A DNA stretch of 23,497 nt, taken from positions 1 through 23,497 of the IMG/VR virus record IMGVR_UViG_3300044611_002022; one strand, given 5' to 3'. A program made the position numbers and the translations under genes. Source of the stretch: a virus. Under the pieces are notes generated by a model, which saw only the letters and a list, made by a program, of their open reading frames with translations, was not told the origin of the DNA and made no database searches. Of the stretch, positions 1-17,462 are shown piece by piece. Each line of letters starts with the position of its first letter. Positions within the stretch are counted from its first letter, which is position 1.

Positions 1-2
1 TA

Positions 3-140
3 ATAGCTATTTTATTTGATTATTGGGATTTAGCACTTGATAAAGATTCTATTTTTTATTTACAAGAATATCAAAGTTATGAAGATGCATTTGCAGTAGC
101 TTTGTCAATGAAAGAAAATAATCCTAAATGTTATAATTAA
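3..140 (+). CDS. 3' end of an unknown gene (start lies before the window)
   Basis: An open frame runs from the window edge to TAA at 138-140 and encodes the last 45 residues of a protein I do not recognise. The segment is acidic and aromatic-rich, including the pieces LFDYWDLALD and YQSYEDAFAVA, and ends in NNPKCYN. The stop is 2 nt before the lipase ATG at 143, the tight spacing seen throughout this strand, so it is probably the upstream member of the same transcription unit. No function can be assigned from this fragment. Confidence 0.6.
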   Translation: MAILFDYWDLALDKDSIFYLQEYQSYEDAFAVALSMKENNPKCYN

Positions 141-142
141 TT

Positions 143-835
143 ATGAAAGCAACAGAAATACTCCGATTATTAAAATTTTCTTATTTGTGTGGATTATCTT
201 ATTCAGGCAAAGGTTGGGAAAATTTTGGTTATAAATTGAAATTAGAATATAACAAAGATTCTATTCAATATTACATAATTGAAAATGAAGAAGAATGTAT
301 TATTGTTTTTCGTGGAACGGATGAATTAAAAGATGTTTTTACAGATATTAATGTTAATTTTTATTCATCAATTTATGGTCGAATACATTATGGATTTTTT
401 AAAGCTTGGGAAAATATTAATTTTTATTTAAGGAATAATTTGCCAATTGGTAAAAAAATATACATTACAGGTCATTCATTAGGTGGTGCATTAGCACAAA
501 TTGCAGGATTATTTATTTATAATGAAGCAATAATAACTTTTGGTTCTCCTATGATTCATCATTTTAAAGATATGCATTTAATAAATACAAATCATATAAG
601 AGTAAGAAATTGTAATGATGTAATTACTAAATTACCATATTTAAATTATGAACATACAGGAAAATTAGTTTATCTTGATTATAATGGAAAAATAAAAGAT
701 AAAGTTTCATTATTTGATAATTTAAAAGGCCATTTAAAAGCTTGGAGTAAAAAACAATGGTTCGATGGTGTATATGACCATAAACTTACAGAATATCAAG
801 ACAAATTAGCTAATTTAGAAAATTATGAGCATTAA
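143..835 (+). CDS. Class 3 lipase-like alpha/beta hydrolase
   Basis: This 230-residue protein looks like a complete triacylglycerol lipase/phospholipase of the class 3 (fungal-lipase-like) family, which hydrolyses acyl esters. The nucleophile elbow GHSLGG is at 110-115 (Ser112). The oxyanion strand is VFRGTD at 55-60, the family motif HYGFFKAW is at 82-89 and FGSP at 133-136. Asp159 (in NCNDV) and His213 (in YDHKLTEY) sit where the other two triad residues are expected, so it should be active. There is no signal peptide or membrane segment, implying a cytoplasmic enzyme unless phage lysis exposes it. It overlaps the next gene by 11 bp. Lipases are not standard phage genes; a lysis, membrane or host-takeover role is inference. 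Family assignment is firm, substrate unknown. Confidence 0.85.
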   Translation: MKATEILRLLKFSYLCGLSYSGKGWENFGYKLKLEYNKDSIQYYIIENEEECIIVFRGTDELKDVFTDINVNFYSSIYGRIHYGFFKAWENINFYLRNNLPIGKKIYITGHSLGGALAQIAGLFIYNEAIITFGSPMIHHFKDMHLINTNHIRVRNCNDVITKLPYLNYEHTGKLVYLDYNGKIKDKVSLFDNLKGHLKAWSKKQWFDGVYDHKLTEYQDKLANLENYEH

Positions 836-1007
836 ATTATATGAATTGACTTGCGATTTAAAAGGTGGTGTTCGTAAAATTAAAATTATCAGCAAAAATG
901 AAGATTTTAATGAACATAGAATAAATCGTGAATTGTTTGGCAAAGGAAAAATAGAAAATTATAAAATATTAAATAATAAAATTTTAATTGATAATTTAGG
1001 ATTATGA
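825..1007 (+). CDS. Small unknown basic protein (60 aa)
   Basis: A 60-residue protein with many Lys, Ile and Asn residues (for example GGVRKIKIISK), no membrane segment and no motif I recognise. It starts inside the end of the lipase gene (11-bp overlap) and its TGA overlaps the ATG of the MazG-like gene at 1004, so it is almost certainly co-translated with both. Its position in a tight overlapping chain is the main argument that it is real. Function unknown. Confidence 0.6.
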   Translation: MSIKLYELTCDLKGGVRKIKIISKNEDFNEHRINRELFGKGKIENYKILNNKILIDNLGL

Positions 1008-1285
1008 TTGAATATAAAGATGTTTTGATACAAGCGTTGGAAAAATATGGTAATGATAAACAAATTTTCCAATTACAAGAAGAAATGGCAGAACTTACAA
1101 TCGCGATAAATCATCTTAAACGTGGCCGGGTTGATAAAAAAGCCATATTAACCGAAATTGTTGATGTTCAAATAATGCTTGACCAAATTATTTTGATGTT
1201 TAATTTGGATGAAAATGCATTAAGATTAGAAAAATCAATTAAAATATGTAAATTAATATCTAAATTGGATGAAAAAACACACTAA
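1004..1285 (+). CDS. MazG-like nucleotide pyrophosphohydrolase
   Basis: A 93-residue all-alpha protein with the signature of the MazG/dUTPase-like NTP pyrophosphohydrolases: QEEMAEL at 25-31 (Glu26, Glu27, Glu30) on one helix and EIVDVQIMLD at 51-60 (Glu51, Asp54) on the next. In the family these acidic residues bind Mg2+ and the enzyme converts an NTP or dNTP to the monophosphate plus pyrophosphate. Phage versions are thought to clean nucleotide pools or to lower host (p)ppGpp signalling; which applies here cannot be told. The length matches single-domain phage MazG proteins. It overlaps the upstream gene by 4 bp and the HNH gene by 17 bp. Confidence 0.8.
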   Translation: MIEYKDVLIQALEKYGNDKQIFQLQEEMAELTIAINHLKRGRVDKKAILTEIVDVQIMLDQIILMFNLDENALRLEKSIKICKLISKLDEKTH

Positions 1286-1520
1286 AATATATTTTGAATA
1301 TTTTGGTTATGATGTTTCCGATTTTATACCTTGTGAAGTATGTGGGGCCAAAGCAATTGATATTAATCATATTGATGCAAGAGGTATGGGTGGTTCAAAA
1401 GAAAAAGATTCAATTGATAATCTTATGGCTATGTGCAGAAAATGCCACATTGAATATGGCGATATAAAAGAAAAAAAACAATGGTTAAAGGATTTGCACA
1501 AATTAAACCTCTTTCGGTAA
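1269..1520 (+). CDS. HNH endonuclease-like zinc-finger protein
   Basis: An 83-residue protein with a full HNH arrangement: CEVC at 22-25, NHID at 33-36, GMGGS at 39-43, an Asn at 51 and CRKCH at 56-60. The two CxxC pairs form the structural zinc knuckle, while His34, Asn51 and His60 are the likely HNH residues. HNH nucleases cut DNA with one metal ion; in phages they often help terminase or act as free-standing homing nucleases. The location four genes before the terminase genes and directly before a RusA-like resolvase suggests replication, recombination or packaging rather than homing, but this is inference. Its first 17 bp overlap the MazG-like gene, and the end overlaps the next gene by 40 bp. 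Confidence 0.8.
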   Translation: MKKHTKIYFEYFGYDVSDFIPCEVCGAKAIDINHIDARGMGGSKEKDSIDNLMAMCRKCHIEYGDIKEKKQWLKDLHKLNLFR

Positions 1521-1816
1521 ACGAAGCTTGGAAAGGAAGAAGATTTAAATCAGACAAATATAAAAACTATGAAAAATCGGTTTTATATTTTTTGCCACGT
1601 TTAGATATTCCTGACGGAAAATTATCAATTGAATTAAATATTGGTTTTAGTAATTCAAAATCAGATATAGATAATCCTGTTAAATTATTTTTGGATATTT
1701 TACAAAAAAAGTATAAATTTGATGATGCAAGAATATACCAATTGCTTGTAATTAAGGAAATTGTGAAAAAAGGAAGTGAATTTATAAAATTTCAAATAAC
1801 AGAATATATTCAATAA
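1481..1816 (+). CDS. rusA: RusA-like Holliday junction resolvase
   Basis: A 111-residue protein that fits the RusA family, homodimeric nucleases which cut four-way DNA junctions. It has the N-terminal PLSVNEAW at 10-17 and the acidic active-site run SDIDNPVKLFLD at 61-72 (Asp62, Asp64, Lys68, Asp72), followed by KFDDARIYQL at 79-88 (Asp81, Asp82). The usual length is about 120 residues. The ATG at 1481 lies 40 bp inside the HNH gene; it is kept because the RusA fold starts almost immediately after it. In phages RusA resolves recombination or replication intermediates before packaging, in line with the terminase genes shortly downstream. It ends 11 nt before the ParB-like gene. Confidence 0.82.
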   Translation: MVKGFAQIKPLSVNEAWKGRRFKSDKYKNYEKSVLYFLPRLDIPDGKLSIELNIGFSNSKSDIDNPVKLFLDILQKKYKFDDARIYQLLVIKEIVKKGSEFIKFQITEYIQ

Positions 1817-1827
1817 AATTAAATTAA

Positions 1828-2364
1828 ATGGAAATTGTAAAAATAAAAACTTCAAAAATTGTTTTGAATGATGAAAATCCAAGAACAATAAAAGAATCTA
1901 ATTTTCAAAAATTAATAAATTCAGTTAAAGATTTTCCTGAAATGCTTGAAATTAGGCCAATTGTTGTTGATGAAAATATGGTTGTTTTAGGTGGTAATAT
2001 GAGATTTCGTGCTTGTTTAGAAGCAGGAATGAAAGAAGTATCTGTAATTATTGCCAAAAATTTAACCGAAGAACAAAAAAAAGAATTTATTATTAAAGAC
2101 AATGTTTCAGGTGGAGATTGGGATTGGGATATTTTAGTTAATTCGTGGAATACCGAACAATTAGAAGAATGGGGATTAGAAGTTCCAATTAATTTAACTG
2201 CAGAAGATGCGTTCGACATTGAAGGTAAAGATAAATTTAGCGAAAATGTAAATTTTACTATCAGATGTGATTCGATGGAACAACTTCAAGAACTTCAAAC
2301 AAAGTTAAGCGTTGATGGTCAAAAATTGAATTATCAAGAATTTATTATTAAAGTTGGATTATGA
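1828..2364 (+). CDS. ParB/sulfiredoxin-domain protein
   Basis: A 178-residue protein whose first 100 residues match the ParB N-terminal/sulfiredoxin-like fold: ENPR at 16-19, PIVVDE at 44-49, LGGNMRFRA at 54-62 and AGMKEVSVII at 66-75. The G-G-N-M-R loop corresponds to the conserved nucleotide-binding or catalytic GxxR box. There is no ParB helix-turn-helix, so this is not a partition protein. Phage proteins of this type often sit next to DNA methylases or small terminase genes. The C-terminal half, with WDWD at 98-101 and a later helical part, is of unknown role. Its stop overlaps the next start (ATGA), coupling it to the glycosyltransferase-like gene. Domain firm, function uncertain. Confidence 0.75.
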   Translation: MEIVKIKTSKIVLNDENPRTIKESNFQKLINSVKDFPEMLEIRPIVVDENMVVLGGNMRFRACLEAGMKEVSVIIAKNLTEEQKKEFIIKDNVSGGDWDWDILVNSWNTEQLEEWGLEVPINLTAEDAFDIEGKDKFSENVNFTIRCDSMEQLQELQTKLSVDGQKLNYQEFIIKVGL

Positions 2365-3299
2365 GAGTAGCTATATTAGAGATTTATCCTAATAAAGTGT
2401 TTGATGCAAGTAAAGGTATTGATGCACATTTAAGAAATTCGATAATCATTGGCGATTATTTAGGTGCCGATGTTCTAATTACAGAATCCGATTACCTAAA
2501 GGCATTAAAAAGGAAATATGATGTTCTTATATTGTCTTATGCTTCATTTTACGCCCCATTTCAGCTAATAAACAGATTGGTTGAAAATAACCCTGATGCT
2601 CATCGTGTATTAATATCAAATGAATATGCTCAAAATGGGTTTATTTCAACATTTCCACCCCCTTTCATTTATATAACAAATTTTGAAGGTATAGTTATTG
2701 GTAAAAAGCACGTTAAAGAACACCACGTTTTAAATTTGAATTTATTATTTGCGAGAAAACCTAATAAATTGGCCGATAAGAAGTATGATTGCATTTATTA
2801 TGGAACATTTCGCAAAGACCGAGAAAAATATTTCAAAAAATACCTTCAAAAAGGAATCTATTTATCTACATCAGACAAAAATTTTAAAAAATACAAACAT
2901 ATTGGTTGCAATCCTTTATGGATTAAGAAGTTATCTTGGGCCGATAAAAGAGAAACATTGAACAATTTTAGATTTTCGCTTTATATTGAAGATGAATTTA
3001 CTCATACTTGTTTCAATAATCTCGGTAATAGATGGTATGAAGCAGGATTTTCAAACGTAGTAATGTTTTTTGATAAAAATTGCTACAATACATTAATAAA
3101 ATCAGAAATTGGTATTCATATTGATGAAATTAAACAATTCATAGTAGAAGATTACCAATCATTAAAAGATAAAATTGAACAAATGAAACCCGATTTTGAA
3201 AAATATCTTAAAATTCAGCAAAATTGGAGAACAAATGAACCTCAATTAAGAGAAAAACTATTGAATGATTTAAAAGAAGTCATTTATAAAAAACGCTAA
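2361..3299 (+). CDS. GT-B glycosyltransferase resembling T4 beta-glucosyltransferase
   Basis: A 312-residue protein with a two-domain GT-B look: an N-terminal Rossmann start (MRVAILEIYPN), a central CIYYGTFRKDRE at 144-155 opening the second domain, and NRWYEAGFSNVVMFFD at 223-238. Compared with remembered T4 beta-glucosyltransferase, YGTFR..R aligns with YGGSFR..R (the UDP-phosphate arginines; here Arg151 and Arg154), RWYE with RVWE (ribose-binding Glu; here Glu227), and SNEYAQ at 86-91 with the catalytic-Asp segment (here Asn87/Glu88). The C-terminal helices also align. This suggests a sugar transferred from a nucleotide-sugar donor, perhaps to DNA. A protein or surface-glycan acceptor is equally possible, as a glycosyltransferase cassette lies downstream. 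Coupled by ATGA to the ParB-like gene. Confidence 0.6.
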   Translation: MRVAILEIYPNKVFDASKGIDAHLRNSIIIGDYLGADVLITESDYLKALKRKYDVLILSYASFYAPFQLINRLVENNPDAHRVLISNEYAQNGFISTFPPPFIYITNFEGIVIGKKHVKEHHVLNLNLLFARKPNKLADKKYDCIYYGTFRKDREKYFKKYLQKGIYLSTSDKNFKKYKHIGCNPLWIKKLSWADKRETLNNFRFSLYIEDEFTHTCFNNLGNRWYEAGFSNVVMFFDKNCYNTLIKSEIGIHIDEIKQFIVEDYQSLKDKIEQMKPDFEKYLKIQQNWRTNEPQLREKLLNDLKEVIYKKR

Positions 3300-3301
3300 T
3301 T

Positions 3302-3712
3302 ATGGCATACGATAAAGTAAAAATATACGAACAAGCTAAAGAATTAGTCATTGAAAAAAAGCTTTTTTTTGTCGAAGATGTAATTGCCTTATTACCAATA
3401 AGTAAACAAACATACTACGATTTTTTTAAAGTAAATTCTTACGAATATGACACTATAAAAGATTTGCTTGATAAAAATAAAGTTGAAGTTAAAACTTCTA
3501 TGCGTTCAAAATGGTATAAATCAGAAAATGCTACATTACAATTGGCATTAATGAAATTAATAGGTACCGAAGAAGAAGCACATCGTTTAAATGGAAGTAA
3601 CCATAAAATATCAGGGGACCGAGATAATCCTTTGCAAAATCAAATGACCATAAATGTTGTAAGTACCGGTGTTGCAGTAAAAACCAAAGAATCTGATATT
3701 GATTTAGATTAA
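3302..3712 (+). CDS. Terminase small subunit (TerS-like)
   Basis: A 136-residue protein directly before the large terminase gene (TAATG overlap at 3710-3714). The N-terminal half is helical and DNA-binding-like: VEDVIALLPISKQTYYDFF at 24-42 resembles the HTH of Bacteroidota TerS proteins, followed by a basic region (VKTSMRSKWYKSE) and the helix LQLALMKLIGTEEEAHRLN at 79-97. In the family, TerS forms a ring that recognises viral DNA and stimulates TerL. The C-terminal tail is polar and probably disordered. The assignment rests on position plus pattern; the protein class is divergent. Confidence 0.75.
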   Translation: MAYDKVKIYEQAKELVIEKKLFFVEDVIALLPISKQTYYDFFKVNSYEYDTIKDLLDKNKVEVKTSMRSKWYKSENATLQLALMKLIGTEEEAHRLNGSNHKISGDRDNPLQNQMTINVVSTGVAVKTKESDIDLD

Positions 3713-4842
3713 TGTTCGAAGTAAGCGAATTATTTGAGAAAAATTTTAATTGTCCTACAAAAATTGCCATCAATCAAGGTGGAACGTGGTCGGGAAAAAC
3801 TTATACTATACTTCAGGTCCTAATTACTTATGCTTTATCTGAAACGTGCATAATAACTATAGTCGGCCAAGATATTCCAAATTTAAAATCAGGAGCATTA
3901 AGAGATTTTCAAGATATTATATTCAAAAATCCTTTATTGGATAATAAAATCCTTGAATACAACAAGTCAGATAGGATTTATACGCTTGTAAATGGTTCTA
4001 TAATTGAGTTTAAATCATACGATGATTGGCAAGATGCCAAATCAGGTAAAAGGGATTATTTGTTTTTAAACGAGGCCAATGGTATTAATTATGAAATCGC
4101 TAAACAATTAATTTTAAGAACAGACAAAAAGGTTTTTATTGATTATAACCCCGATTCAGAATTTTGGGTACATTCAACATATCTTAATAGCAAAAAAGCT
4201 TCTTTTTTTTATTCAGACCATCGAATGAATCCTTTTGTTTCAAAAGAAACTCGTGAAGATATAGAAAATTTACGCAATATAGACCTTGAATTATGGAAAA
4301 TTTATGCTCGTGGAATCACAGGTCGAATTGAAGGCTTAATTTATCGCCATTGGAAAATTATTGATGAATTTCCTGAAATTGATTATGTTTATGGACTTGA
4401 TTTTGGTTATAATCATCCAACTGCTTTGATAAAATGTGGATGGGATGATGATAATTACTTTATTAAAGAAGAAATTTATGAATCAGGATTAACCACGCCA
4501 CAATTAATAGACAAAATGAAACAATTAGATATAGGTCAAACAGAAATTTTCGCTGATTCGGCTCGACCCGATACGATAGAAGAACTATATCAAGCAGGTT
4601 TTAACGTAAAATCATCTGACAAATCAGTAAAAGATGGAATAAATTGCGTAAAATCTAAACCATTAAATGTTTTCAATTCGCCAAACATTGTAAAAGAACT
4701 AAAAATGTACAAATGGAAAACCGATAAAAATAATAAACCTGTGGATGAACCTGTAAAATTCAATGATGATGGAATGGATGCGATGCGATATGGATTATAT
4801 AATGGAACTAAATTATTAGGAAGGAAGGCATCGTGGTTTTAA
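3712..4842 (+). CDS. Terminase large subunit (TerL)
   Basis: A 376-residue DNA-packaging motor, ATPase plus nuclease. The Walker A motif is GGTWSGKT at 23-30. The Walker B strand is YLFLNE at 116-121, with Asn120 in place of the usual Asp before the catalytic Glu121, a variation I recall as common in Bacteroidota phages. DYNP at 144-147 fits the coupling segment. The RNase H-like nuclease domain starts at about 225 with GLDFGYNHP (Asp230) and continues with IFADSARPD (Asp282) and DDGMDAMRYG (Asp356), the expected three acidic ligands. It is somewhat shorter than many TerL proteins but no motif is missing. It docks on the portal, whose gene in this window lies about 18 kb downstream. Confidence 0.93.
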   Translation: MFEVSELFEKNFNCPTKIAINQGGTWSGKTYTILQVLITYALSETCIITIVGQDIPNLKSGALRDFQDIIFKNPLLDNKILEYNKSDRIYTLVNGSIIEFKSYDDWQDAKSGKRDYLFLNEANGINYEIAKQLILRTDKKVFIDYNPDSEFWVHSTYLNSKKASFFYSDHRMNPFVSKETREDIENLRNIDLELWKIYARGITGRIEGLIYRHWKIIDEFPEIDYVYGLDFGYNHPTALIKCGWDDDNYFIKEEIYESGLTTPQLIDKMKQLDIGQTEIFADSARPDTIEELYQAGFNVKSSDKSVKDGINCVKSKPLNVFNSPNIVKELKMYKWKTDKNNKPVDEPVKFNDDGMDAMRYGLYNGTKLLGRKASWF

Positions 4843-5564
4843 TTAACGTGGATAAACAATATGAGATGCCAACTCAATTGAATGAAATTTCCTTAAAATT
4901 ATTTATCAAACTTCAAGATTTGCTATCAGAAGAAAATTATGATGAAGCAATTATGCTCGTTTCGGGTATTTCAAGCGATATTTATGAATATATTTCAAAT
5001 GAAGGTAAATTAAAATTGGCAGAATTAGTTAAATTGTTATTAAATGGCGAACCTGTTTTTGGCGATGAATTGCAACTTTATGAATTATTGGAATGTCCAA
5101 TTGGTCAATTTGAAGATTGGAAAGCTACTATTTCTGAATTTAAAGAAAAAACGTGGCACGCTTTACCTTGTTTGACTTTGCTTGAAAAATGTGATTACAA
5201 TTATAACACTCAAATAAATAAACGATATTTAGAATATTTAGAAATGCCATCATCAATTGCACTTTTCCACCAAAAAAAGGTTAATGAGCAATTTGAAGAT
5301 TTGAAGAATAAATTTTTACCTTTGTTTGAAGATGAACTTGAAGATATACAATTAGAAGCAGGTGTTATGTCATTAAATCAATTTGGTGGATATGGCACAT
5401 TGGTTCAATTAGCTAATAACATTTATAAAGATATTGATGTTGTTAGTAAAACAAGTGTAGCAGAAGCTTATACGTTTTTAACTTATAAAAAAATTGAACG
5501 GACATATTTGCATAATTTAGAAAAATTGAAACGTGAAGAAATTAATAGAAATATTCAAAGCTAA
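4833..5564 (+). CDS. Putative tail assembly chaperone-like protein
   Basis: A 243-residue acidic, mainly helical protein of no certain family. The N-terminal part (EMPTQLNEISLKLFIKL) and the C-terminal pattern (GTLVQLANNIYKDIDVV, then AYTFLTYKKIERTYLHNLEKL) resemble helical tail-assembly chaperones of Bacteroidota siphophages. The first start in frame is GTG at 4833, overlapping the TerL stop by 10 bp; a GTG at 4848 or the ATG at 4866 are alternatives, the latter leaving a 23-nt gap. It overlaps the next gene by 32 bp. Tail chaperones usually sit just before the tape measure gene, which here lies 8 kb away, so the position is atypical. The role is uncertain. Confidence 0.45.
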   Translation: MVLINVDKQYEMPTQLNEISLKLFIKLQDLLSEENYDEAIMLVSGISSDIYEYISNEGKLKLAELVKLLLNGEPVFGDELQLYELLECPIGQFEDWKATISEFKEKTWHALPCLTLLEKCDYNYNTQINKRYLEYLEMPSSIALFHQKKVNEQFEDLKNKFLPLFEDELEDIQLEAGVMSLNQFGGYGTLVQLANNIYKDIDVVSKTSVAEAYTFLTYKKIERTYLHNLEKLKREEINRNIQS

Positions 5565-5976
5565 AGCTGAAAAGACTTATTTTTTTGGTACCGGCACGAA
5601 CATTGAACTAAATTCTCAATCCAATATTAAATATCCTTTAATTTGGATGCTTTTTCCTGTTACAATAAACAACAATTCAACTAATGGAATTATTGTATCA
5701 CAAACTTTTAATTTTTCACTTCAATTTTTAACATCAGGAAAAATAACAGATACTCAATTACAAGTAAATGAGCATTTTAATTTGTTAAATGATATAATGG
5801 TTGGATTTATTCAATCAATGCAGATAGAAAATGAAAATTTAGAACGTGATTCAATGGTCTTTGGTCAAGCATCAATGATTAATAAAAAAATGGACAATAT
5901 CCATTTCGGTTGGCAAGTTAGTGTTCAAGTTACTTTACCAATTGACTCTAATTTATGTTGTAATTTATTTGAGTAA
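5533..5976 (+). CDS. Putative tail terminator / head-tail connector protein
   Basis: A 147-residue protein. GTG at 5533 is the only sensible start: an in-frame TGA lies just upstream at 5527-5529 and the next Met is residue 39. The middle (ITDTQLQVNEHFNLLNDIM, then FIQSMQ) and the end (NKKMDNIHFGWQVSVQVTLP) fit the alpha-beta pattern of small neck or tail-terminator proteins, in which a helix of about 25 residues is followed by paired strands. Location after terminase and before an HK97 gp10-like protein supports this. In the family such proteins cap the tail tube and join it to the head. Moderate confidence only. Confidence 0.45.
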   Translation: MKKLIEIFKAKAEKTYFFGTGTNIELNSQSNIKYPLIWMLFPVTINNNSTNGIIVSQTFNFSLQFLTSGKITDTQLQVNEHFNLLNDIMVGFIQSMQIENENLERDSMVFGQASMINKKMDNIHFGWQVSVQVTLPIDSNLCCNLFE

Positions 5977-6440
5977 TGGAATTAACTAAAACTTTAGAAG
6001 AATTTAATAAATTAAATCAAGCACTTATTGAAGCGTTGGATAAAAAAAATTCTTCTTTGGCAGATTCACACGAAATATCTTATTTTACAGGTTCTACAAA
6101 AACAACTATATCTATTTTAGCGAATGAATATTGGTATTGGATAAATAATGGTCGTGGCCCCTCGCAAAAAGGAAATAAACCACCTGTAGTAAGGCCATCA
6201 ATTAAAGAATGGCTTGAACAAAAAAATATTCCTGAATGGTATGCAAAAAAGAAAGATGGTTCACAAGGAAAAAAATTAACTCGTGATGAACAAGCATTTT
6301 TAATAGCAAGAAAAATTCATCGTGAAGGTTTTAAGGGTAATTTTTATGTAGATGATACTTTACCTAATTTTGAAAAAAAAATAGAAGAATCAATTAACGA
6401 AGATTTAAATAATTATTTTAATAATGAGTTTAACAATTGA
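5976..6440 (+). CDS. HK97 gp10-like tail completion / connector protein
   Basis: A 154-residue protein starting with a TAATG overlap. The core EYWYWINNGRGPSQKG at 51-66 followed by RPSIKEWL at 73-80 and a basic FLIARKIHREGFKGNFY stretch matches the HK97 gp10-like or virion-morphogenesis type proteins of Bacteroidota phages: a tyrosine-rich strand, an NGRGP turn and an R/K-rich end of a helix. These join head and tail or stabilise the neck. The last 25 residues are acidic and Asn-rich, probably flexible. It overlaps the next gene by 17 bp. Confidence 0.6.
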   Translation: MELTKTLEEFNKLNQALIEALDKKNSSLADSHEISYFTGSTKTTISILANEYWYWINNGRGPSQKGNKPPVVRPSIKEWLEQKNIPEWYAKKKDGSQGKKLTRDEQAFLIARKIHREGFKGNFYVDDTLPNFEKKIEESINEDLNNYFNNEFNN

Positions 6441-7092
6441 AATAGAACCCGATGAAATTTCTGCAGTATATAATCCTGTTAAATTTCAATTTGCTTCAGA
6501 TGTGCGAAGTAATTATACTATTGGCGATGTTCATACAATTGTGCCAAATGTTATTGTAAATAATAATGGTTACGTTGAAATTAGTTATGATGTTGACCAT
6601 TTATTATTAGCAGGAGATTTTATTAAAATAACTGATAATGGTGGAATTACAGGATTAGATGGAGTTTGGTTAATTAGAGAAATAATTAATGCAGATAGTT
6701 ATGTCATAAATTGTCCATATACTGAAACAAATGCAGAAAATGTTTTATTATATAAATTTTTGAGAAATTATAATTGCGTAATTAGAATTTTTGCTTATAA
6801 TTTATGCGATGCAAATTATCAATTAATAGCTAAATTGCTTTTTAAACCATTATTTAGTGAAGGATATTGTTATTTTAGAACAGATATATCAGATATTCTA
6901 AAAAATTATAATAATGAATGTAATACAGAAATAGATAATATTTCATCTGATTTAATGCCATTAATTGATATTCCTGATTCACAAATTAATAATAAATCAT
7001 TTTTATCTTATTATATCAGTTACGCTGAAGGATTTGATAATCCTGTAGTTGGAACTCCTGAATATGTAGAAACAATACCTGAAGAAAATTAA
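6424..7092 (+). CDS. Putative minor tail protein, unknown subclass
   Basis: A 222-residue, beta-strand-rich protein with no enzyme motif. The opening EPDEISAVYNPVKFQFASD at 8-26 resembles the start of tail or baseplate proteins in Bacteroidota phages. A central stretch (GDFIKITDNGGITGLDGVWLI) looks like a beta-barrel, and the end is a proline- and glutamate-rich tail. It is followed 2 nt later by another large tail protein, and the three genes 6424-11026 probably build one complex such as the distal tail or baseplate. The exact role cannot be told. Confidence 0.5.
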   Translation: MSLTIEIEPDEISAVYNPVKFQFASDVRSNYTIGDVHTIVPNVIVNNNGYVEISYDVDHLLLAGDFIKITDNGGITGLDGVWLIREIINADSYVINCPYTETNAENVLLYKFLRNYNCVIRIFAYNLCDANYQLIAKLLFKPLFSEGYCYFRTDISDILKNYNNECNTEIDNISSDLMPLIDIPDSQINNKSFLSYYISYAEGFDNPVVGTPEYVETIPEEN

Positions 7093-7094
7093 TT

Positions 7095-8888
7095 ATGCCA
7101 ACATATAGAAAAGTAGTTAATTCAGCATTACAATATAATCAAGCAAATTTATCTGATTATATAATTTCTTCTTCAACAACAGGAAAGAAATTTTTGACTG
7201 AATGTCCATTAAATAGAAATATTAGATTAACTGAATTATCGGCATTATATTTTTTGATTGATAATGCAGAATCTTTTATTGGTTGTTCTGTTTTAAAATA
7301 CAAAGATGAAAATGGAAATTTATTATACGAAAATTATATAAATTTTAATTTAACCGCAAATGTACATAATGCAATACCAATTAATTTTGCCGATGGAAAT
7401 CCATTTTATGTATCATCAAACGCAAAAAGTATAAGTGTTTTAATATCATCTAATTATAATTTATTTTATAATGGAAATTTTGAACTTGGAACAGGTAATT
7501 TGTTTACATCGTGGACTTTAACGCAAACAAGCAGAACGAACTTATTACAACGCTCACAAGAGTTTGATAATGCGTATTGGACTAAAGGGAGTAGCACAAT
7601 AGTAGCTAATTCAATAATAGCACCCGATGGAACAACAACGGCTGATACTTGGGTAGAAGCTAATGGAGTTGGCATAACACCTGAAATAGTTAAAGCTATA
7701 TCATTAAGTAATTCAACACAATACACTTGGAGTATTTACGCAAAGCCAAATGGTAGAGATTGGATAGTAATCAACGCAAATGATGGGACTGCATCTTATC
7801 GTACTTGGTTTAATGTTACGACGGGAGTAGTAGGAACTAATCCATCAGGTTCAACTGCAAGAATATTTTTAGATGAGAACGGATTTTATCGTTGTATAGT
7901 TACACGCACAACGGCAAGTTCGGCGATTGGTTCTTTGTTTGATTTACAGATAGCAAATGCAGATGGGGTAAACACATACACGGGCAACGGAACAAACGGA
8001 GTTTATATTTGGGGTGCTCAATTAGAGCAATCATCACAAGTTACACCTTATATTCCAACAACTACATCTGCAACAACTACTTCTGTTGGAGCATTTTTAC
8101 AATCAATATTAGGTGGCGTAAATGGAAAAAGATGTTTAATGATGTGGAATAATATTTCATCAATCTATTTAAGACAAGCTTTATATTTAATATCAGGAAC
8201 TAATTATATACTTAAATTTTGGGCCAAAACTGATATAACTTATAATAATGCAAGAATGAATCTTGTAGTGGGAGGTACTGATATTGGAGATACTGAAGGT
8301 GCTATAATAAATGAATGGCAAGAATTTTCAATTGCTTTTTCAGGACCAAGTACCGGTTCTCAAAATTTTGATTTAAATTTTTTAAATGATGATAATTATG
8401 GTTTTGTCTATTTAGATAATGTTTCATTAAGATTGGCAAATGAATCAATTGCATTGAGTGAAGAAATTACATTTGTTTTAGATGAAGAATGTGCAGTTGA
8501 AGAAAAACAGGTTGTTTGGTTAAATAAATTAGGTGGATATGATTCGTGGACTTTTTTAGCAGGTCAAGAAACTCAAATTAATGTTAAACGAGAAAATGAT
8601 ATTGAATATTCTAAAGAAACTAATTTTGTTTCTCCTAATCGCATTTACGCTAACAGGAACAACACATCTATAAAGAGTAAAGGATTAGCTACCAAAACGA
8701 ATAAAAGTACTGCAGAATGGCTTAAATCGGAATTAATTAATTCAATTGATGTTTATTTTGTCGAAAATGATAAATACATTCCTGTAAATGTTAAAGATGG
8801 TTCAATTGCTTATAATACTTGGACTAAAAATTACATAGTTAAAATGAATTTTGAATATGCTTATCCTATCAATATACAAACACGATAA
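7095..8888 (+). CDS. Tail protein with nested carbohydrate-binding-like domains
   Basis: A 597-residue structural protein. Residues 1-120 and 460-597 look like the common Bacteroidota tail scaffold: the C-terminal half contains VVWLNKLGGYDSWTFLAG at 473-490. A galactose-binding-like (CBM_4_9-type) domain begins at NGNFELG at 126 and ends with VYLDNVSL at 438-445, but is interrupted by a second complete module at about 146-330. That module has SQEFDNAYWTKG at 154-165, APDGTTTADTW at 176-186, YTWSIYAKP, YIWGAQLEQ at 304-312 and TPYIPT at 317-322, the pattern of glycan-binding lectin-like domains on phage tails. This protein is therefore a good candidate for host-surface binding. It overlaps the next gene (TAATG). 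Confidence 0.65.
   Translation: MPTYRKVVNSALQYNQANLSDYIISSSTTGKKFLTECPLNRNIRLTELSALYFLIDNAESFIGCSVLKYKDENGNLLYENYINFNLTANVHNAIPINFADGNPFYVSSNAKSISVLISSNYNLFYNGNFELGTGNLFTSWTLTQTSRTNLLQRSQEFDNAYWTKGSSTIVANSIIAPDGTTTADTWVEANGVGITPEIVKAISLSNSTQYTWSIYAKPNGRDWIVINANDGTASYRTWFNVTTGVVGTNPSGSTARIFLDENGFYRCIVTRTTASSAIGSLFDLQIANADGVNTYTGNGTNGVYIWGAQLEQSSQVTPYIPTTTSATTTSVGAFLQSILGGVNGKRCLMMWNNISSIYLRQALYLISGTNYILKFWAKTDITYNNARMNLVVGGTDIGDTEGAIINEWQEFSIAFSGPSTGSQNFDLNFLNDDNYGFVYLDNVSLRLANESIALSEEITFVLDEECAVEEKQVVWLNKLGGYDSWTFLAGQETQINVKRENDIEYSKETNFVSPNRIYANRNNTSIKSKGLATKTNKSTAEWLKSELINSIDVYFVENDKYIPVNVKDGSIAYNTWTKNYIVKMNFEYAYPINIQTR
7530..8084 (+). other. Foreign-looking domain insert inside a tail gene
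   Basis: This stretch encodes residues about 146-330 of the 7095-8888 protein. It is visibly richer in G and C than its flanks (about 40% in a part counted, against under 30% nearby), uses different codons (more ACG, AAC, GCG) and codes for a self-contained lectin-like domain. It splits a CBM_4_9-like domain whose first strand lies before and whose remainder lies after. Limits are estimated from protein pattern and composition. A transfer event into an existing domain is the simplest reading. Confidence 0.6.
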
Positions 8889-11026
8889 TGGAATATACTA
8901 AAGTAATTATTGATGACCTTTATTCTATAGATTTATCAGGAAAAGATATTATAATTCCTATTAGTTATGAAGTTATTGATATTAAAAATTTAAATCGTAG
9001 GTCAGGAAGTAAAACTAAAACTATTACAATACCTCGTACTTTAAAAAACGATAAAATATTTGGATTGGCTTTTTCAATTAATGGTAAAAATCAATTTGAT
9101 AAATATTTATCTCGAAAAATCAGAATTGAAAAAAATACTCAAATATTATTTAATGGTTTATGCCGATTAACTGATGTTACAATAGATACTATATCATTTT
9201 ATGCATTTGCTGAATTATCAAAATTAAAAGATTTATTTGGACAACTTACATTAAACGATTTAAATTTAGATGATTTAGACCATATTTACGATAAAACAAT
9301 TTTTGATACTTGGGATGGAATTTACCCAATATATGTTCAACCTGATTATTTTTATCCTGTAATTGATTATGGACAATTTCAAAATACTAATCCTTTAGCA
9401 AGTAGTGAAACTCCTTCTATAAATATAGTTGATATGTATCCTGCTTTATATTTAAAAAGAGCAATTGAGCAAATTTGTTTGGATAATGGGTACACTTTAA
9501 AAACTAATTTTTTTGATGATTCACAAACTGCAAAAATTTTAATTCCTTTTGTTAATGAACAATTTATTCATAGTGATGATTATTTAACTCGTGAATTTGG
9601 ATTGGATTCAAGAAATATTGGAACATATACATTACCCGATTCAGCAGGAATTTATATTATACCAACTGATAACGTTCTTTATGATAATTTATCTCAATTT
9701 TCAGGTGGAGAATATACTGCACAAGGAAACCAACGTATTAATATCTTTGCAAATTGCAGAATAGAAACACTTGGAACATATCCTGCAGGTTTTTATTTTC
9801 TTGTAAGCGTTTTAAAATATGATAATGTTTTAATGGATTGGATTTCATTAGGAGATAAAGTTGTTACAAATTCACTAAATCCTGCTGAATATATAAGTGT
9901 CGGTTTTAGAATTTCAGCAAATTTAAATAATGGAGAAAAAATAAAATTTATAGTAAGAAAATTTAATACTTCAGCACCAATAGAAATTAATATTATAAAT
10001 TCATTATTTGTAGTTTTACCTAATTATGTAGATATTAATATACGAAATATTTTTCCAAATGAATTTGTACAAATAGCACCTAATTTACCACCAATATCAC
10101 AAATTGATTTATTTAAGTGGTGTTATCAAATGTTTAATTGGGTAATATTTGTAGATGATGATAAAGGACAAATTGAAATTTCTACTTATGATTTATTTTA
10201 TCAAAATAATAGTCAAAAAGATTTCAGTCAAAAATTATCTTTAAATCCTAATCCTGTAATAAATTATCAACCAACTGATTTCAGTAGAAAATATGATTTT
10301 AAATACAAACACGATTCAGGAGATTTTTATTTATCACGTTATGATTTGCAACAAACTATAAATCAACCATTTCTATTTGGAGATGGAAGATATTATTTAA
10401 CTAAACAAGGAGATGCTACATTAATTGGCGAAGTTGGTTTTTCTCCTACAATTATTGAAAAATCTTTTAAAGGACATCCAAGTGATTTCATAAAAATTAC
10501 TACAATGTTAAATAATTCTGCACCAACAATTAAAAACACTCAACACGAACCAAGAATATTAATTAATGGAGGATTAGTTACAATAGATACTTTATCTGAA
10601 GGAACTATAGACCATATTTATATTGAGGAAGTTGGTGCAGTTACAAATTTACCATTATGTTATTTTCATAAACAAACATTCAATGAGGCTAATATAGATG
10701 CTTTTGATTTGAATTTATCTTTTTCAAGGCCTGATATAATTTTATATACAAATGGCAATTTAATAGATAAATATTATAAAAGTGCTATTAATTCATTATC
10801 GGTTTCTGCTCAATTGATTGCTTATTTTATGCTTGATAGTCAAGATATTACAGAATTAGATTTTTCACAAAATTGGTATATTTCTTATTTTAACGCTATC
10901 TTTAGATTAAATAAGATAGTTGATTATAATGCTAATTCATTAGGATTAACCAAAGTAGAACTAATAAATGTTGGTGTAATTGATACAATTGAAGATAATT
11001 ATCAAATAATAGAATCAAATAATTAA
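8888..11026 (+). CDS. Large tail / baseplate protein
   Basis: A 712-residue protein with no enzyme motif. The N-terminal region has GSKTKTITIPRTLKNDKIFG at 40-59, then a repeated strand pattern ending in SKLKDLFGQLTLNDLNL, an arrangement I associate with conserved baseplate-hub or distal-tail proteins of Bacteroidota siphophages. The middle (residues about 180-400) is beta-rich, and the segment ISQIDLFKWCYQMFNWVIFVDDDKG looks like the hub fold that contacts the tail tip. It is the largest gene of the three-gene group after the neck genes. Cell-wall cutting cannot be excluded but no lytic motif is seen. Confidence 0.55.
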   Translation: MEYTKVIIDDLYSIDLSGKDIIIPISYEVIDIKNLNRRSGSKTKTITIPRTLKNDKIFGLAFSINGKNQFDKYLSRKIRIEKNTQILFNGLCRLTDVTIDTISFYAFAELSKLKDLFGQLTLNDLNLDDLDHIYDKTIFDTWDGIYPIYVQPDYFYPVIDYGQFQNTNPLASSETPSINIVDMYPALYLKRAIEQICLDNGYTLKTNFFDDSQTAKILIPFVNEQFIHSDDYLTREFGLDSRNIGTYTLPDSAGIYIIPTDNVLYDNLSQFSGGEYTAQGNQRINIFANCRIETLGTYPAGFYFLVSVLKYDNVLMDWISLGDKVVTNSLNPAEYISVGFRISANLNNGEKIKFIVRKFNTSAPIEINIINSLFVVLPNYVDINIRNIFPNEFVQIAPNLPPISQIDLFKWCYQMFNWVIFVDDDKGQIEISTYDLFYQNNSQKDFSQKLSLNPNPVINYQPTDFSRKYDFKYKHDSGDFYLSRYDLQQTINQPFLFGDGRYYLTKQGDATLIGEVGFSPTIIEKSFKGHPSDFIKITTMLNNSAPTIKNTQHEPRILINGGLVTIDTLSEGTIDHIYIEEVGAVTNLPLCYFHKQTFNEANIDAFDLNLSFSRPDIILYTNGNLIDKYYKSAINSLSVSAQLIAYFMLDSQDITELDFSQNWYISYFNAIFRLNKIVDYNANSLGLTKVELINVGVIDTIEDNYQIIESNN

Positions 11027-11034
11027 AAAATAAA

Positions 11035-12441
11035 ATGGCAAAGAAAAAAATAAGTGCATTACCTATAGCAGGAAGTCTATTGGGTGCAGAAATAGTTCCA
11101 ATTGTACAAACAGGAACAACAAAACAAACAACGATTCAAGATATCGTTAATTTGGTAGAAACAGAAGGTGGAATTAATGGAAGTGGAACTGCGAATCGAA
11201 TTTCTAAATTTATAGATGCAAATACTATTGGAGATAGTTCTATTTCCGATGATTTAACTATTCTTCAAACGTATTCGCAAGAATCGGGAGGTAATGAAGG
11301 ATTAAAACTTGATTACGCAAACAGGTCCTATAAATTAGGAGAATTTGATTACAATGTAAATGGAACTATTTTTGAAGTCAATGATGATTTAAAATTTATT
11401 TTGACAAAATATTCAGGAAATAATGTTGGATTATATTTTGATTTTCTTAATAATGTTTATTCATTAGGAGATTTTGATTATATTTCTATAGGAACTGCAT
11501 ACGTTGTTGATTCATATAAGGCTTATACAAAATCAGAAGGTGGAATAAAAGGTTTAGGAATTGATTTTAACGAAAATGCTTATACTTTGGGTGTTCCCGA
11601 AGGAAACGATTATGTTTCGGGAGTTGTAGGTTTTTCAATGATTAATGAAATTATTACAATCGGCGATGGTTGGGCGAGTTCAACTGCTTTAAAATTTGTT
11701 GTCGATATTCCTTTAAATTTAATCAAAACTCAAACATCAGGATATGATTGTGGTTTAAAAGTTGATTTTGATGAAAATATTTATGCTATTGGAGATTATG
11801 CAAATGAAAGGAATACAGGAACATCGTTAATTATAGATGATTTGGTTGGAAAAATAAAAACACGATACAATAATACAGATTCGGGATTTTTTATTGACTA
11901 TGGAGATTATTCTACATCGTTTCAATTAGATTATAATCCAATTAATACAGGAAATTATATTCAATTGCCGAGAATAAATCAAGCAATTGGAAATTTAGCA
12001 GGAAATCAATCTTATTTTAATCACAATTTGTTTGCTTACAATCCGAAATATTATTTGCAATTTGGTCAATATTTACCATCAGAAGGAGATGGTGGAGCAT
12101 CATTACAAATTGTAATGACCGAATCGGGAGATTGGGGACAAACTGCAATTTCCTTATTAGGTTGGAATCCCGAAGAAGGATTTTTATTACAAAATGCAAA
12201 TATAATTAATTTGAACTCGCTTTCTCCCGATGGTGCAAAACAATGTCATATTTCATTAAACGGAACAGATGAAAGAATTAGTTTTAATACAAAGGCAGTA
12301 AATTTCGGACCATTAACAACAACTGAAATAAACAATATATTAAATCCTATAGATGGTGATGTTGCATACAATACAACATTGAACACTATTTGTTTCTATG
12401 ATGGAAGTTCTTGGAAAAAAGTAACTCATTCAGCGATGTAA
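11035..12441 (+). CDS. Tail fibre-like protein with internal repeats
   Basis: A 468-residue protein. The N-terminus KKKISALPIAGSLLGAEIVP at 3-22 followed by IVQTGTTKQTTIQDI matches the attachment end of many phage tail fibres. Residues about 83-300 carry degenerate repeats (see separate entry), and the C-terminus has the fibre/spike motif DGDVAYNTTLNTICFYDG near 440-457 then SSWKKV. It likely forms a trimeric shaft ending in a receptor-binding tip. It starts 8 nt after the preceding stop, behind an A-rich leader. The neighbouring 54-codon gene has its own promoter, so transcription of the tail block may end or weaken near here, although I see no terminator hairpin directly after it. Confidence 0.65.
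   Translation: MAKKKISALPIAGSLLGAEIVPIVQTGTTKQTTIQDIVNLVETEGGINGSGTANRISKFIDANTIGDSSISDDLTILQTYSQESGGNEGLKLDYANRSYKLGEFDYNVNGTIFEVNDDLKFILTKYSGNNVGLYFDFLNNVYSLGDFDYISIGTAYVVDSYKAYTKSEGGIKGLGIDFNENAYTLGVPEGNDYVSGVVGFSMINEIITIGDGWASSTALKFVVDIPLNLIKTQTSGYDCGLKVDFDENIYAIGDYANERNTGTSLIIDDLVGKIKTRYNNTDSGFFIDYGDYSTSFQLDYNPINTGNYIQLPRINQAIGNLAGNQSYFNHNLFAYNPKYYLQFGQYLPSEGDGGASLQIVMTESGDWGQTAISLLGWNPEEGFLLQNANIINLNSLSPDGAKQCHISLNGTDERISFNTKAVNFGPLTTTEINNILNPIDGDVAYNTTLNTICFYDGSSWKKVTHSAM
11281..11934 (+). repeat. Degenerate protein repeats in the fibre gene
   Basis: Residues about 83-300 contain four to five divergent units of roughly 40-65 residues. Each has a core of a Gly, a strand ending in D-F/Y, an N-x-Y pair and L/I-G: GLKLDYANRSYKLGEFDY, then GLYFDFLNNVYSLGDFDY, GLGIDFNENAYTLG, GLKVDFDENIYAIGDY and a last decayed GFFIDYGDY unit. 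DNA identity between units is low, so the repeats are old. The pattern fits a beta-helical or stacked-strand shaft. Confidence 0.6.
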
Positions 12442-12472
12442 TTTGTAAATAATTAAAAATAAAGTATCTTTG
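12442..12472 (+). promoter_or_regulatory. Bacteroidota-type promoter for the 54-codon gene
   Basis: TTTG at 12442-12445 and TATCTTTG at 12465-12472 match the Bacteroidota consensus TTTG-(about 19)-TAnnTTTG with a spacer of exactly 19 nt. The ATG of the small gene begins 3 nt after the box, so transcription would start at or next to the start codon. Confidence 0.75.
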
Positions 12473-12475
12473 ATT

Positions 12476-12640
12476 ATGACCAACGAACAAATATTTGCTA
12501 TTATTAGTCAAGGATTAAATAAAGCAAACAAATCAGGAGTTTTTGATTTAAAAGAATCGGCATCAGTTGTTTCAGCATTATCTGAACTTCAAAAAGTTTT
12601 AGATTCTTTATCTCCTAAAGAGGAAATGAAAAAAGTATAA
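12476..12640 (+). CDS. Small conserved-looking protein (54 aa) upstream of the tape measure gene
   Basis: A 54-codon gene. The protein is helical: NEQIFAIISQGLNKANKSG at 3-21, then VFDLKESASVVSALSELQKVL, resembling a short protein I recall from Flavobacterium-type phages. No membrane segment or catalytic motif is seen. It has its own promoter immediately upstream (no untranslated leader expected) and a strong terminator starting 4 nt after its stop, so it forms a single-gene transcript. Role unknown; a small tail-assembly or regulatory factor is a guess based on the neighbouring tape measure gene. Confidence 0.7.
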   Translation: MTNEQIFAIISQGLNKANKSGVFDLKESASVVSALSELQKVLDSLSPKEEMKKV

Positions 12641-12643
12641 TTG

Positions 12644-12673
12644 AATAAGGCCTGTAAAATGGCCTTATTTTTT
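12644..12673 (+). terminator. Rho-independent terminator before the tape measure gene
   Basis: AATAAGGCC at 12644-12652 pairs perfectly with GGCCTTATT at 12661-12669 around an 8-nt loop, and is followed by a T run to 12673. The 9-bp stem contains GGCC. It ends the 54-codon transcript 13 nt before the tape measure ATG at 12686, and no promoter fits in between, so tape measure expression probably relies on read-through. Confidence 0.8.
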
Positions 12674-12685
12674 AAATTTAAAACG

Positions 12686-15085
12686 ATGGCAGATAGCAAA
12701 ACGATTATTTATAGTGTTGATATTGAATATGGGAATCTTGTAAAGAACTCCGAGGATATTAAAACAAAAATAAAGGATTTAACAATTGCTCAAACAAATT
12801 TAGATACAAGCAGTAAAGAAAATCAGAAAACTTATCGTGAAAATACTACTCAATTAAAAATGCTTCAAAGTCAATTGAAGTTAAATGAAACAGAAGTAAA
12901 TAAATTCACAGAATCAGAAAAAGCAAATACAGATGCTACAAATTTCAACAATAATTCAATAAAACAAAACAGAGAATTATTAAAAGGATTAACTGCAGAA
13001 TATATTAAACTTCAAAATCCCACTGAAGAACAAACCAAAAAAATAAAAGCGTTAAGTGATACTTTAAAAGCACAAGAAGGTGCCATTGGCGATACTCGTA
13101 GAAGTGTAGGTAATTATAAAGAATCTTTTCAATCAGCTATTGGACAATTTCCTGCATTTCAAAAAGGAATTGAAGGAGTTTCTAATGGTTTCAAAGCATT
13201 ATCTGCAGGAAATCCATTTACGCTTATATTGATGGCATTAACACCATTGATACAATCATTTTTAAAATTAGAACCTGTAACAAATGCAATAAATGGAGTT
13301 TTTGAAGGATTAACTTCAGCAATTACCACTATTGTTTCATCAATAAAAAACTTTTTTGATTTAATGTCATCAGGTGCAGGATTTTTTGATTCAATTTCTC
13401 AAGCATTTGGTGGATTGGGTGGAAAAATGAAATCGGCAGCGATTGAAGGATATAATTTAGTTCAAGCATTAGATGATTTAGAAGATGCTGAAAGGTCAAA
13501 TCAAGCTTCTATGGCTAAAACTAATAGAGATGTGGCAATTCTCATTGCTCAATCTAAAGATAGGACTAAAACAGAACGAGAACGTATTGATTTATTAAAG
13601 GAAGCGAACCGATTAGAAGAAGAACAACTTAAAAAAGATTTAAATATAGCAAATACAAGAGTGGCCGTTACTGCTCACGCTTTAGCAGTTGCAATTCGTA
13701 CAGGAAAAGACCGAGATACTGCAGAGCAAAATTTAGCAGATGCTCAACAAAAACGATTTGAAGCAGAACAGGCTTCAGGAGTTCAAACAGAAAAAAATCA
13801 AGGCAGAATTAATGGTTTAATTCAATCAGAAGATGATTTGCGACAAAAAGGACTTGATAAACAAAAGAAAAGAATTGAAGAAAATAAGAAAATTTTAGAT
13901 GATTTTGTTAAAAAAGTTACTGAATCATTAAATGAAGAACAAAAAATAAGAGTAGAACAATTTGCAAATGATAAATTACTTACTCAAATGGCCAATGATG
14001 AAAAATTATTGTCTTTAAAAGAATCATTTGCAAATGGAACACTTACAGAAAAACAATACCAAGACCAAATTAAAGAACAACAATTAGCATTTTATGATGC
14101 ACAAATAGCCGACCTTGAAGAATATAATGGTATTACAGGTGCATACGATGATGAAATCACTAAATTAAAAATTGATAAACAAAATGCAGTTACTGATAAT
14201 AAAATAGTAAATATTGAAAAACAGAAAGAATTAGATGCTCAAAAATTTGAATTAGATTTAGAATATGCTACAATAACTGCACAAACAGACCAAGAAAAAA
14301 GGGACCAAGAAATTTTAAATATAGAAGCTCAAAATGCTCAAATATTAAAAAACACTAAATTAACTGAAGAACAAAAGCGAAATGAGATAGCAAAAAATGC
14401 TAAAGCAATTGAAGAAATTGAAAAGGCATCTACTAAAGCAAGAATTGCTAATATTATGCAATTAGCAAATGTAATGGGCCAAATATCAGAATTATTAGGA
14501 AAAAATACTGAAGAAGGAAAAGCTTTTGCAGTTGCTCAAACTATTATTAGCACATACGCTTCTGCACAACAAGCCTATGCATCTCAAATAATTCCCGGCG
14601 ACCCAACTTCTCCTGTTCGTGGTGCTATTTTAGCAGGATTAGCTATTATTCAAGGATTAAAAAGAGTGAGAGAAATAACTGCAATTGAAGTTCCAAAACC
14701 AACACCTCCACCTCCACAAAAAACTGAAGGATTTGCCGAAGGTGGATTAGTAGGATTTGCAAGTGGTGGATTATCAGGAACTAAAATTACTTCAGGAATG
14801 GGAATACCAATAAGAAGGAGAAATGGAGATAATTTATTAGCAACCGTAAAAACAGGAGAAGTTATTTTAAATCAAAAACAACAAGCGATGCTTGGTGGTT
14901 CAAGTACTTTTTCTCGAATTGGTGTTCCGGGATTCGCTAATGGTGGAATGATTCTTCCTGATATAACAAGTCCTAATTTTGATTTAATGGAATCATTTAG
15001 AAATATGCAATTAGTAGTGAGTGCAGTTGAAATCACAAATGTACAGAACAGATTAAAGGTAATGGAAGATACTACATCATTATGA
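12686..15085 (+). CDS. Tail tape measure protein
   Basis: A 799-residue protein that sets tail length. From the N-terminus: a coiled-coil region (about 20-135), the motif RRSVGNYKESF at 138-148 typical of Bacteroidota tape measures, hydrophobic segments at about 176-245 (NPFTLILMALTPLI, then SAITTIVSSI), a long charged coiled coil (about 260-600) and a Gly-rich C-terminal part with FAEGGLVGFASGG at 683-695 and LATVKTGEVILN. The start is ATG 12686: an in-frame TTG at 12641 and ATG at 12659 lie within the terminator hairpin and add unlikely residues. It overlaps the next gene by 4 bp (ATGA). The protein has no visible lytic domain. Its low copy number per virion fits limited read-through. Confidence 0.9.
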   Translation: MADSKTIIYSVDIEYGNLVKNSEDIKTKIKDLTIAQTNLDTSSKENQKTYRENTTQLKMLQSQLKLNETEVNKFTESEKANTDATNFNNNSIKQNRELLKGLTAEYIKLQNPTEEQTKKIKALSDTLKAQEGAIGDTRRSVGNYKESFQSAIGQFPAFQKGIEGVSNGFKALSAGNPFTLILMALTPLIQSFLKLEPVTNAINGVFEGLTSAITTIVSSIKNFFDLMSSGAGFFDSISQAFGGLGGKMKSAAIEGYNLVQALDDLEDAERSNQASMAKTNRDVAILIAQSKDRTKTERERIDLLKEANRLEEEQLKKDLNIANTRVAVTAHALAVAIRTGKDRDTAEQNLADAQQKRFEAEQASGVQTEKNQGRINGLIQSEDDLRQKGLDKQKKRIEENKKILDDFVKKVTESLNEEQKIRVEQFANDKLLTQMANDEKLLSLKESFANGTLTEKQYQDQIKEQQLAFYDAQIADLEEYNGITGAYDDEITKLKIDKQNAVTDNKIVNIEKQKELDAQKFELDLEYATITAQTDQEKRDQEILNIEAQNAQILKNTKLTEEQKRNEIAKNAKAIEEIEKASTKARIANIMQLANVMGQISELLGKNTEEGKAFAVAQTIISTYASAQQAYASQIIPGDPTSPVRGAILAGLAIIQGLKRVREITAIEVPKPTPPPPQKTEGFAEGGLVGFASGGLSGTKITSGMGIPIRRRNGDNLLATVKTGEVILNQKQQAMLGGSSTFSRIGVPGFANGGMILPDITSPNFDLMESFRNMQLVVSAVEITNVQNRLKVMEDTTSL

Positions 15086-15327
15086 ACATAGAAAAAGAAT
15101 TTTACGAACGCATTAATAATAAATTTGGCGAATGTTCCAAATTGGCTTATTATTTAGCAGAAAAATGTGCATTGACTACATCTGATTTAGAAAGATTCTT
15201 AATAAGAAGTGAAGTTGAAGAACAAATTGAAAAAGGAAAAAAATCAAAAATGATGATTTATGCAGATATTGCTGAAAAATATTGTAAATCAATACATTCG
15301 GTAATATATATTGTAAAAAAAATCTAA
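15082..15327 (+). CDS. Small HTH-like protein, possible regulator
   Basis: An 81-residue basic protein translationally coupled to the tape measure gene (ATGA). It is helical; the last part, YADIAEKYCKSIHSVIYIVKK at 60-80, has the spacing of a helix-turn-helix of the type in small terminase or sigma-like proteins (I-A..Y..S...V..I). The stop is directly followed by the inverted repeat and promoter at 15328-15373. A DNA-binding regulator of that site is therefore plausible but is inference; a minor tail role is the alternative. Confidence 0.5.
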   Translation: MNIEKEFYERINNKFGECSKLAYYLAEKCALTTSDLERFLIRSEVEEQIEKGKKSKMMIYADIAEKYCKSIHSVIYIVKKI

Positions 15328-15373: not shown

Positions 15374-15377
15374 TTAT

Positions 15378-16463: not shown

Positions 16464-16484
16464 ACAATTAAAAAATAAAAAAAA

Positions 16485-17459: not shown

Positions 17460-17462
17460 TTT

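Follow-up and report, generated by a model that had tools for sequence, protein, structure and literature searches.

The window analysed here, 23,497 nucleotides of viral DNA (positions 1 to 23,497 of the IMG/VR record IMGVR_UViG_3300044611_002022), encodes on its plus strand a 312-aa GT-B glycosyltransferase (GT; positions 2361-3299) that resembles the beta-glucosyltransferase (BGT) of phage T4, directly behind a gene for a 178-aa ParB-like protein (1828-2364). The two genes form a conserved and portable pair that stands ahead of several terminase families. Our preferred reading, to which we assign a probability of roughly one half, is that the GT docks on the ParB-like protein and glycosylates DNA, its presumed substrate, in a limited or site-directed way. 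An earlier note on this DNA had named the ParB gene; that it forms a conserved, portable pair with the GT gene is added here.

The reading frame 2361-3299 begins with ATG and ends with TAA. Pairwise dN/dS among the relatives of the GT is 0.06-0.15 in seven of nine pairs, the other two being saturated at synonymous sites, and thus the family is under purifying selection. The frame is confirmed as a genuine gene, conserved at the protein level. A scan of viral contigs with divergent GT members yielded 127 relatives, 80 of which were kept; 78 loci were used, since in two the GT begins at a contig end, and these hold 65 distinct GT sequences. As with T4 BGT, the family was found in viral records only, in searches of viral, bacterial, archaeal and plasmid sequences: no relatives of the window GT were found in bacterial or archaeal genomes, nor in plasmids. 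A megablast search of positions 1-20000 of the window against phages gave no match.

An AlphaFold2 model of the window GT, built from 20 sequences, has a pLDDT of 88.3 and a pTM of 0.85. In a Foldseek search of the PDB with this model the first three ranks are T4 BGT entries (E 9.2e-11 to 7.6e-9), and the next family follows at E 2.8e-5. A second structure aligner again placed T4 BGT first (Z 24.0, 292 residues aligned at rmsd 2.7, approximately 18-19% identity), ahead of the T4 alpha-glucosyltransferase (AGT; a-gt, CAZy GT63; Z 18.8) and SenB (Z 17.5) as the second and third families. A better match to another GT-B family, which the earlier note had named as a refutation, was thus not seen. 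Rank 3 in a library of viral structures, above CgeB-like viral GTs, was held by the 351-aa entry UPI000035883D, which, judged by its length, is probably T4 BGT itself.

Sequence comparison points the same way. In hhalign, where E-values are those of a single comparison, the family alignment A1 matched a six-member BGT family with E 3.8e-10 and a probability of 96.7 (E 2.3e-7 and 93.5 with another alignment), the match being confined to the C-terminal half. The comparison with T4 BGT alone was weak (E 0.018, probability 2.5), and the controls, T4 AGT and the GT10-like protein of the window, gave E 0.29 and 0.23, respectively; thus AGT shares the GT-B fold with the window GT but no sequence signal. 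A second link is a bridge of two BLAST steps. The window GT matches S13_057 of Cronobacter phage S13 (E 8e-27, 35% identity), and S13_057 in turn matches eight records outside its own five-record group (E 6e-3 to 6e-2), six of them annotated as beta-glucosyl- or glycosyltransferases and two unannotated; of the latter, one also matches T4 BGT. A search of the PDB with the A1 profile returned chance-level matches only, so that it is the BGT-family profile and the S13 bridge that carry the sequence link to BGT.

The window GT falls outside Pfam's model of BGT (b-gt; CAZy GT72): PF09198, the T4 BGT N-terminal domain, matched neither this protein nor records G000 and G008, while the positive controls, T4 and vipetofem, gave matches. 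Pfam and PHROGs held no credible match for the window GT itself, and for its relatives PHROGs gave scattered weak matches only. PF13524 (Glyco_trans_1_2, CgeB) is matched by nine of the 12 A1 members (best E 4.2e-5) but not by the window GT; T4 BGT also matches it (E 2.8e-4). Two other candidates were rejected: Exo70_C (E 8.3e-5, under its cut-off and limited to the C-terminal helix) as spurious, and DNase I, for which phmmer against the PDB gave near-chance matches.

The residues expected to hold the sugar donor are those of BGT. The earlier note had picked out an order of key segments parallel to that of BGT, and the segments lie where it put them (NEY at 87-89, YGTFRKDRE at 147-155, RWYE at 224-227 and FFD at 236-238). 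When the 65 distinct family sequences from the 78 loci were aligned with six BGTs, T4 R191 and R195 fell in the columns of window R151 and R154 (codons at 2811-2822, plus strand), and T4 R269 and E272 in those of R224 and E227 of the RWYE motif (3030-3041, plus strand). All four are invariant in the 65 relatives, in keeping with the UDP-phosphate arginines and ribose glutamate that the note had named. In T4 BGT we take R191, R195 and R269 to be contacts of the UDP diphosphate, E272 a contact of the ribose and D100 the catalytic base; a D100A mutant of BGT is named in the title of a PDB entry. The column of D100, aligned by sequence and not by superposed coordinates, holds E88 in the window (codon 2622-2624, plus strand) and is always acidic, with glutamate in 50 and aspartate in 15 of the 65. 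The differences lie elsewhere. T4 E22, invariant among the six BGTs, is replaced by asparagine in all 64 relatives with a residue there (the other has a gap); the window GT is 39 residues shorter than T4 BGT; and the BGT segments at about 67-75 and 102-120 are without counterpart in it. This pattern suggests that the donor chemistry is as in BGT and that the acceptor or DNA-contact side is altered; since the UDP-binding residues are kept, the donor would be a UDP-sugar. Structure, profile, the S13 bridge and residue identity together leave little doubt of homology to T4 BGT, the kinship proposed by the earlier note. A shared BGT-like fold alone is no proof of substrate.

The partner protein matches PF02195 (E 4.9e-7, above the cut-off), and the stop codon of its gene and the start codon of the GT gene overlap by 4 bp. 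Its AlphaFold2 model (pLDDT 81, falling below 50 at residues 125-139) is closest, among PDB chains, to a ParB with bound CTP (Z 14.6, 92 residues aligned). Most of its PDB matches, which include CTP- or CDP-bound ParB and ATP-bound sulfiredoxin, are limited to residues 1-119. An N-terminal nucleotide-binding ParB domain is therefore present, on the Pfam and structure matches combined; no helix-turn-helix family of Pfam matched the protein. Its ParB half also matches PHROG 498 (E 1.8e-24), labelled 'DNA modification methylase', and methyltransferases are among the annotated features under its matches in 257 phage records. These phage ParB-DNA methyltransferase proteins likewise link a ParB-like domain to an enzyme. 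In the window, in contrast, the enzyme is a glycosyltransferase, it is encoded by a separate, overlapping gene, and its ParB-like partner ends in a conserved tail.

A ParB-like and/or tail profile matched directly upstream of the GT in 70 of 78 loci, which corresponds to 58 of the 65 distinct GT sequences. The two genes overlap at 69 of the 70 junctions, 41 times by exactly 4 bp; this count favours small distances, since the GT was assigned the start codon closest to the stop of the ParB-like gene. PF02195 itself was detected in nine of 11 nearer and four of 11 more distant records. Downstream in the window come a probable small terminase subunit (3302-3712, plus strand), so assigned by position and without a Pfam or PHROG match, and a large terminase subunit (3712-4842, plus strand; Terminase_3, PF04466, E 1.2e-11), so that the GT lies between a ParB-like gene and terminase genes, as first described. 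Among ten large terminases scanned with Pfam, one of them downstream of a decayed copy of the pair and two without a match, the types following the pair were Terminase_3, T7/Terminase_6C, GpA and Terminase_6N/6C; T4-type terminases also occur. Of 75 loci that extend far enough downstream, 60 have a terminase match within 2.5 kb and 15 have none, although these misses may include other terminase families, since the same loci were the source of the 14 query terminases.

The last 45 residues of the ParB-like protein (2227-2361, plus strand) are a candidate docking element for the GT, on the evidence of conservation, swaps and a tail-only search. Across 17 loci the mean column identity of this tail is 70%. 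In loci L015, L023 and L024 the ParB half is of another lineage, only 21-23% identical to that of the window, whereas the tail (51-56% identical) and the GT are kept. Among all 153 pairs, only 94 show greater similarity in the tail than in the ParB half, and thus the effect is concentrated in these three swaps. When the tail by itself served as query, 36 loci were recovered, some cut at contig ends. In 34 of them a GT adjoins, a proportion favoured by the seeding of the search from tails of GT loci; the other two are L081 and L092, described below. That the tail stays conserved across swapped ParB lineages suggests recruitment of the enzyme to DNA.

The ParB partner is not universal. Seven GT loci have no ParB or tail match and carry a deaminase-like gene upstream instead; the one scanned of these (L162:3288-3662) is cytidine/dCMP-deaminase-like (PF00383, E 1.2e-6). 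Locus L144 has two ParB-like genes (recognized by eye, with no Pfam match), then a radical SAM gene (2743-3984; PF04055, E 4.2e-6, under its cut-off), then the GT and the terminase; the radical SAM gene might prepare a base for glycosylation. At the ParB position of L151 (3107-3841) is a cysteine-rich protein with no Pfam match and with a tail-profile match nearby. Locus L081 (3404-3934) has the ParB-like gene and tail without a GT ahead of the terminase. In L092 (5572-6312) a decayed copy survives, with a broken ParB frame and with the tail joined to the final stretch of the GT; the module can thus be lost.

Cronobacter phage S13 (Straboviridae) differs from the window genome in having a large, T4-type genome with no terminase adjoining S13_057; there, S13_057 and the upstream S13_056 are annotated as hypothetical only. 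Cronobacter phage LPCS28 and Citrobacter phage Ci1 are further named phages that carry a GT of this family. Pfam did not recognize a ParB half in S13_056. Its tail-like match (E 0.95, rank 2 among 723 ORFs; BLASTP 0.053; hhalign probability 25) is suggestive only of a tail of the window type.

We did not find the pair described in the available portions of the literature that links ParB in phages to glycosyltransferases, beta-glucosyltransferase among them, or to the glycosylation of DNA; Pyle et al. 2024 (doi 10.1016/j.celrep.2024.114631) may cover related enzymes. Nor was it found in the accessible parts of PMC7468147, PMC11780129, PMC5512222, PMC7824862, PMC12838424, PMC13390438, PMC13216743 and PMC12619734.

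We propose that the GT is a UDP-sugar-dependent GT-B enzyme of one descent with T4 BGT and that, to judge from the overlap and its conservation, it would be made with the ParB-like protein as a translationally coupled pair. The 45-aa tail would dock the GT, and the ParB domain would carry it to phage DNA, as in the ParB-DNA methyltransferase fusions of other phages. There the pair may add sugar sparingly, perhaps at directed sites or regions and not at every cytosine; limited addition is proposed because no hydroxymethylase was recognized and because restriction still exerts pressure on the genome. As acceptor, either a canonical base might serve or one that is first hydroxylated, be it by the host or by an enzyme that escaped recognition here. 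That the window GT acts on DNA, by whatever route, seems to us more likely than not, and somewhat likelier than this full mechanism.

The alternative that survives best, though we consider it unlikely, is that the GT glycosylates a protein, such as capsid, terminase or a defence protein of the host, or else a glycan on the host surface, its BGT-like fold reflecting ancestry without DNA activity. The window does hold other GT genes (18971-19756 and 21057-21707) that probably act on surfaces; they lie in a cassette of GT10-like, GT2-like and methyltransferase-like genes (18288-22700) that is probably for virion or host-surface sugars. Such a role would also fit the lack of a DNA acceptor source in the PF00303 searches and of general protection of the window DNA, both described below. 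However, both of the families that match best by structure consist of DNA glucosyltransferases, the GT gene is coupled to that of a ParB-like protein and not to the sugar cassette, and the tail kept across swapped ParB lineages speaks, as noted, for DNA.

The ends of the window (1-5347 and 20721-23497) overlap both ends of record G008 (locus L050) at 99.96% identity, and thus the two records together close into a circular genome of 34,119 bp. Searched in six frames with PF00303 (thymidylate synthase/dCMP hydroxymethylase), both gave nothing, while the positive controls T4 and vipetofem were matched; the earlier remark that no hydroxymethylation genes are visible therefore holds genome-wide by this search. 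Outside the structural genes of mid-window, 24 of the 28 G008 ORFs of at least 90 aa were also scanned with Pfam, again without a gene of the thymidylate-synthase family. PF00303 was absent from all 33 distinct virus records searched (11, G000, 10 and 11), a set in which one has no GT, one has a GT remnant, most are fragments and the window genome alone is known whole. Phage S13 has a single PF00303 match, beside dihydrofolate reductase and annotated as thymidylate synthase, so that it too seems to be without a hydroxymethylase. A search for Tet/JBP found none in 15 records but shows little, as its controls were silent; Pfam scans of the 24 G008 ORFs, and of 36 ORFs lying upstream in six other records, gave no Tet_JBP either. 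C5-methylases were found in none of 15 records, with controls matched in ten of 14.

In the 34.1-kb genome, compared with expectations from trinucleotides, CATG occurs 0 times (93 expected), GATC once (99), CTAG 0 times (38) and GCGC 0 times (12). Such a loss of 4-bp palindromes points to strong pressure from restriction. Depletion of one or more of GATC, CATG and CTAG (to no more than 0.15 of expectation, with at least 30 sites expected) is seen in five of 12 GT-bearing sets, namely those of the window, G003, G006, G007 and G009, and in none of the other seven. Thus, the DNA of several such phages is probably not generally protected, which argues against blanket glucosylation of the T4 style; the loss of sites is compatible with limited or site-directed modification, or with recent gain of the module.

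It is accordingly highly improbable that the window GT glucosylates hydroxymethylcytosine throughout the genome in the ordinary T4 manner, on a hydroxymethyl base supplied by the host or by an enzyme that was not recognized. The BGT-like fold and the UDP-binding residues would suit that role, and a MazG-like nucleoside triphosphate pyrophosphohydrolase (window 1004-1285; PHROG 2245, E 1.3e-18) could in principle remove unmodified nucleotides. Against these stand the missing PF00303 matches and the near-absence of CATG, GATC and CTAG just described, and also the setting of true BGT genes, which in T4 and vipetofem adjoin or neighbour thymidylate-synthase-family genes, whereas the window GT is paired with a ParB-like gene and not with a dCMP hydroxymethylase. 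Of the original reading as a DNA or glycan glucosyltransferase, then, the kinship with BGT stands, while uniform, T4-style glycosylation is unlikely because a hydroxymethylase is missing and the restriction sites are nearly lost. No better are the chances that a nucleotide or another small molecule, such as a defence signal, is both the target of the GT and the ligand of the ParB-like domain: ParB and sulfiredoxin folds bind nucleotides and SenB, the third structural family, is a small-molecule GT, yet SenB scores 6.5 Z units below BGT and the gene lies among packaging genes with no special link to signalling.

For T4 DNA glucosylation, the hydroxymethylated base must be made before replication. 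The window genome, a small phage genome that has a BGT relative and a ParB-like partner and is without the DNA-preparing genes of T4, suggests another way of sugaring DNA. We put forward, more tentatively than the docked enzyme itself, a widespread two-gene module in which a ParB-type protein would, by its conserved tail, guide a BGT-like GT to chosen sites of phage DNA, acting on a base not prepared by dCMP hydroxymethylase and tied in many lineages to packaging. The occurrence of BGT-like GTs in at least 65 distinct sequences, tied to ParB and without a recognized base source, would mean an unknown DNA acceptor or a new route of modification. If so, defence systems would meet a wider set of DNA modifications, and the pair could yield a tool for guided DNA glycosylation.
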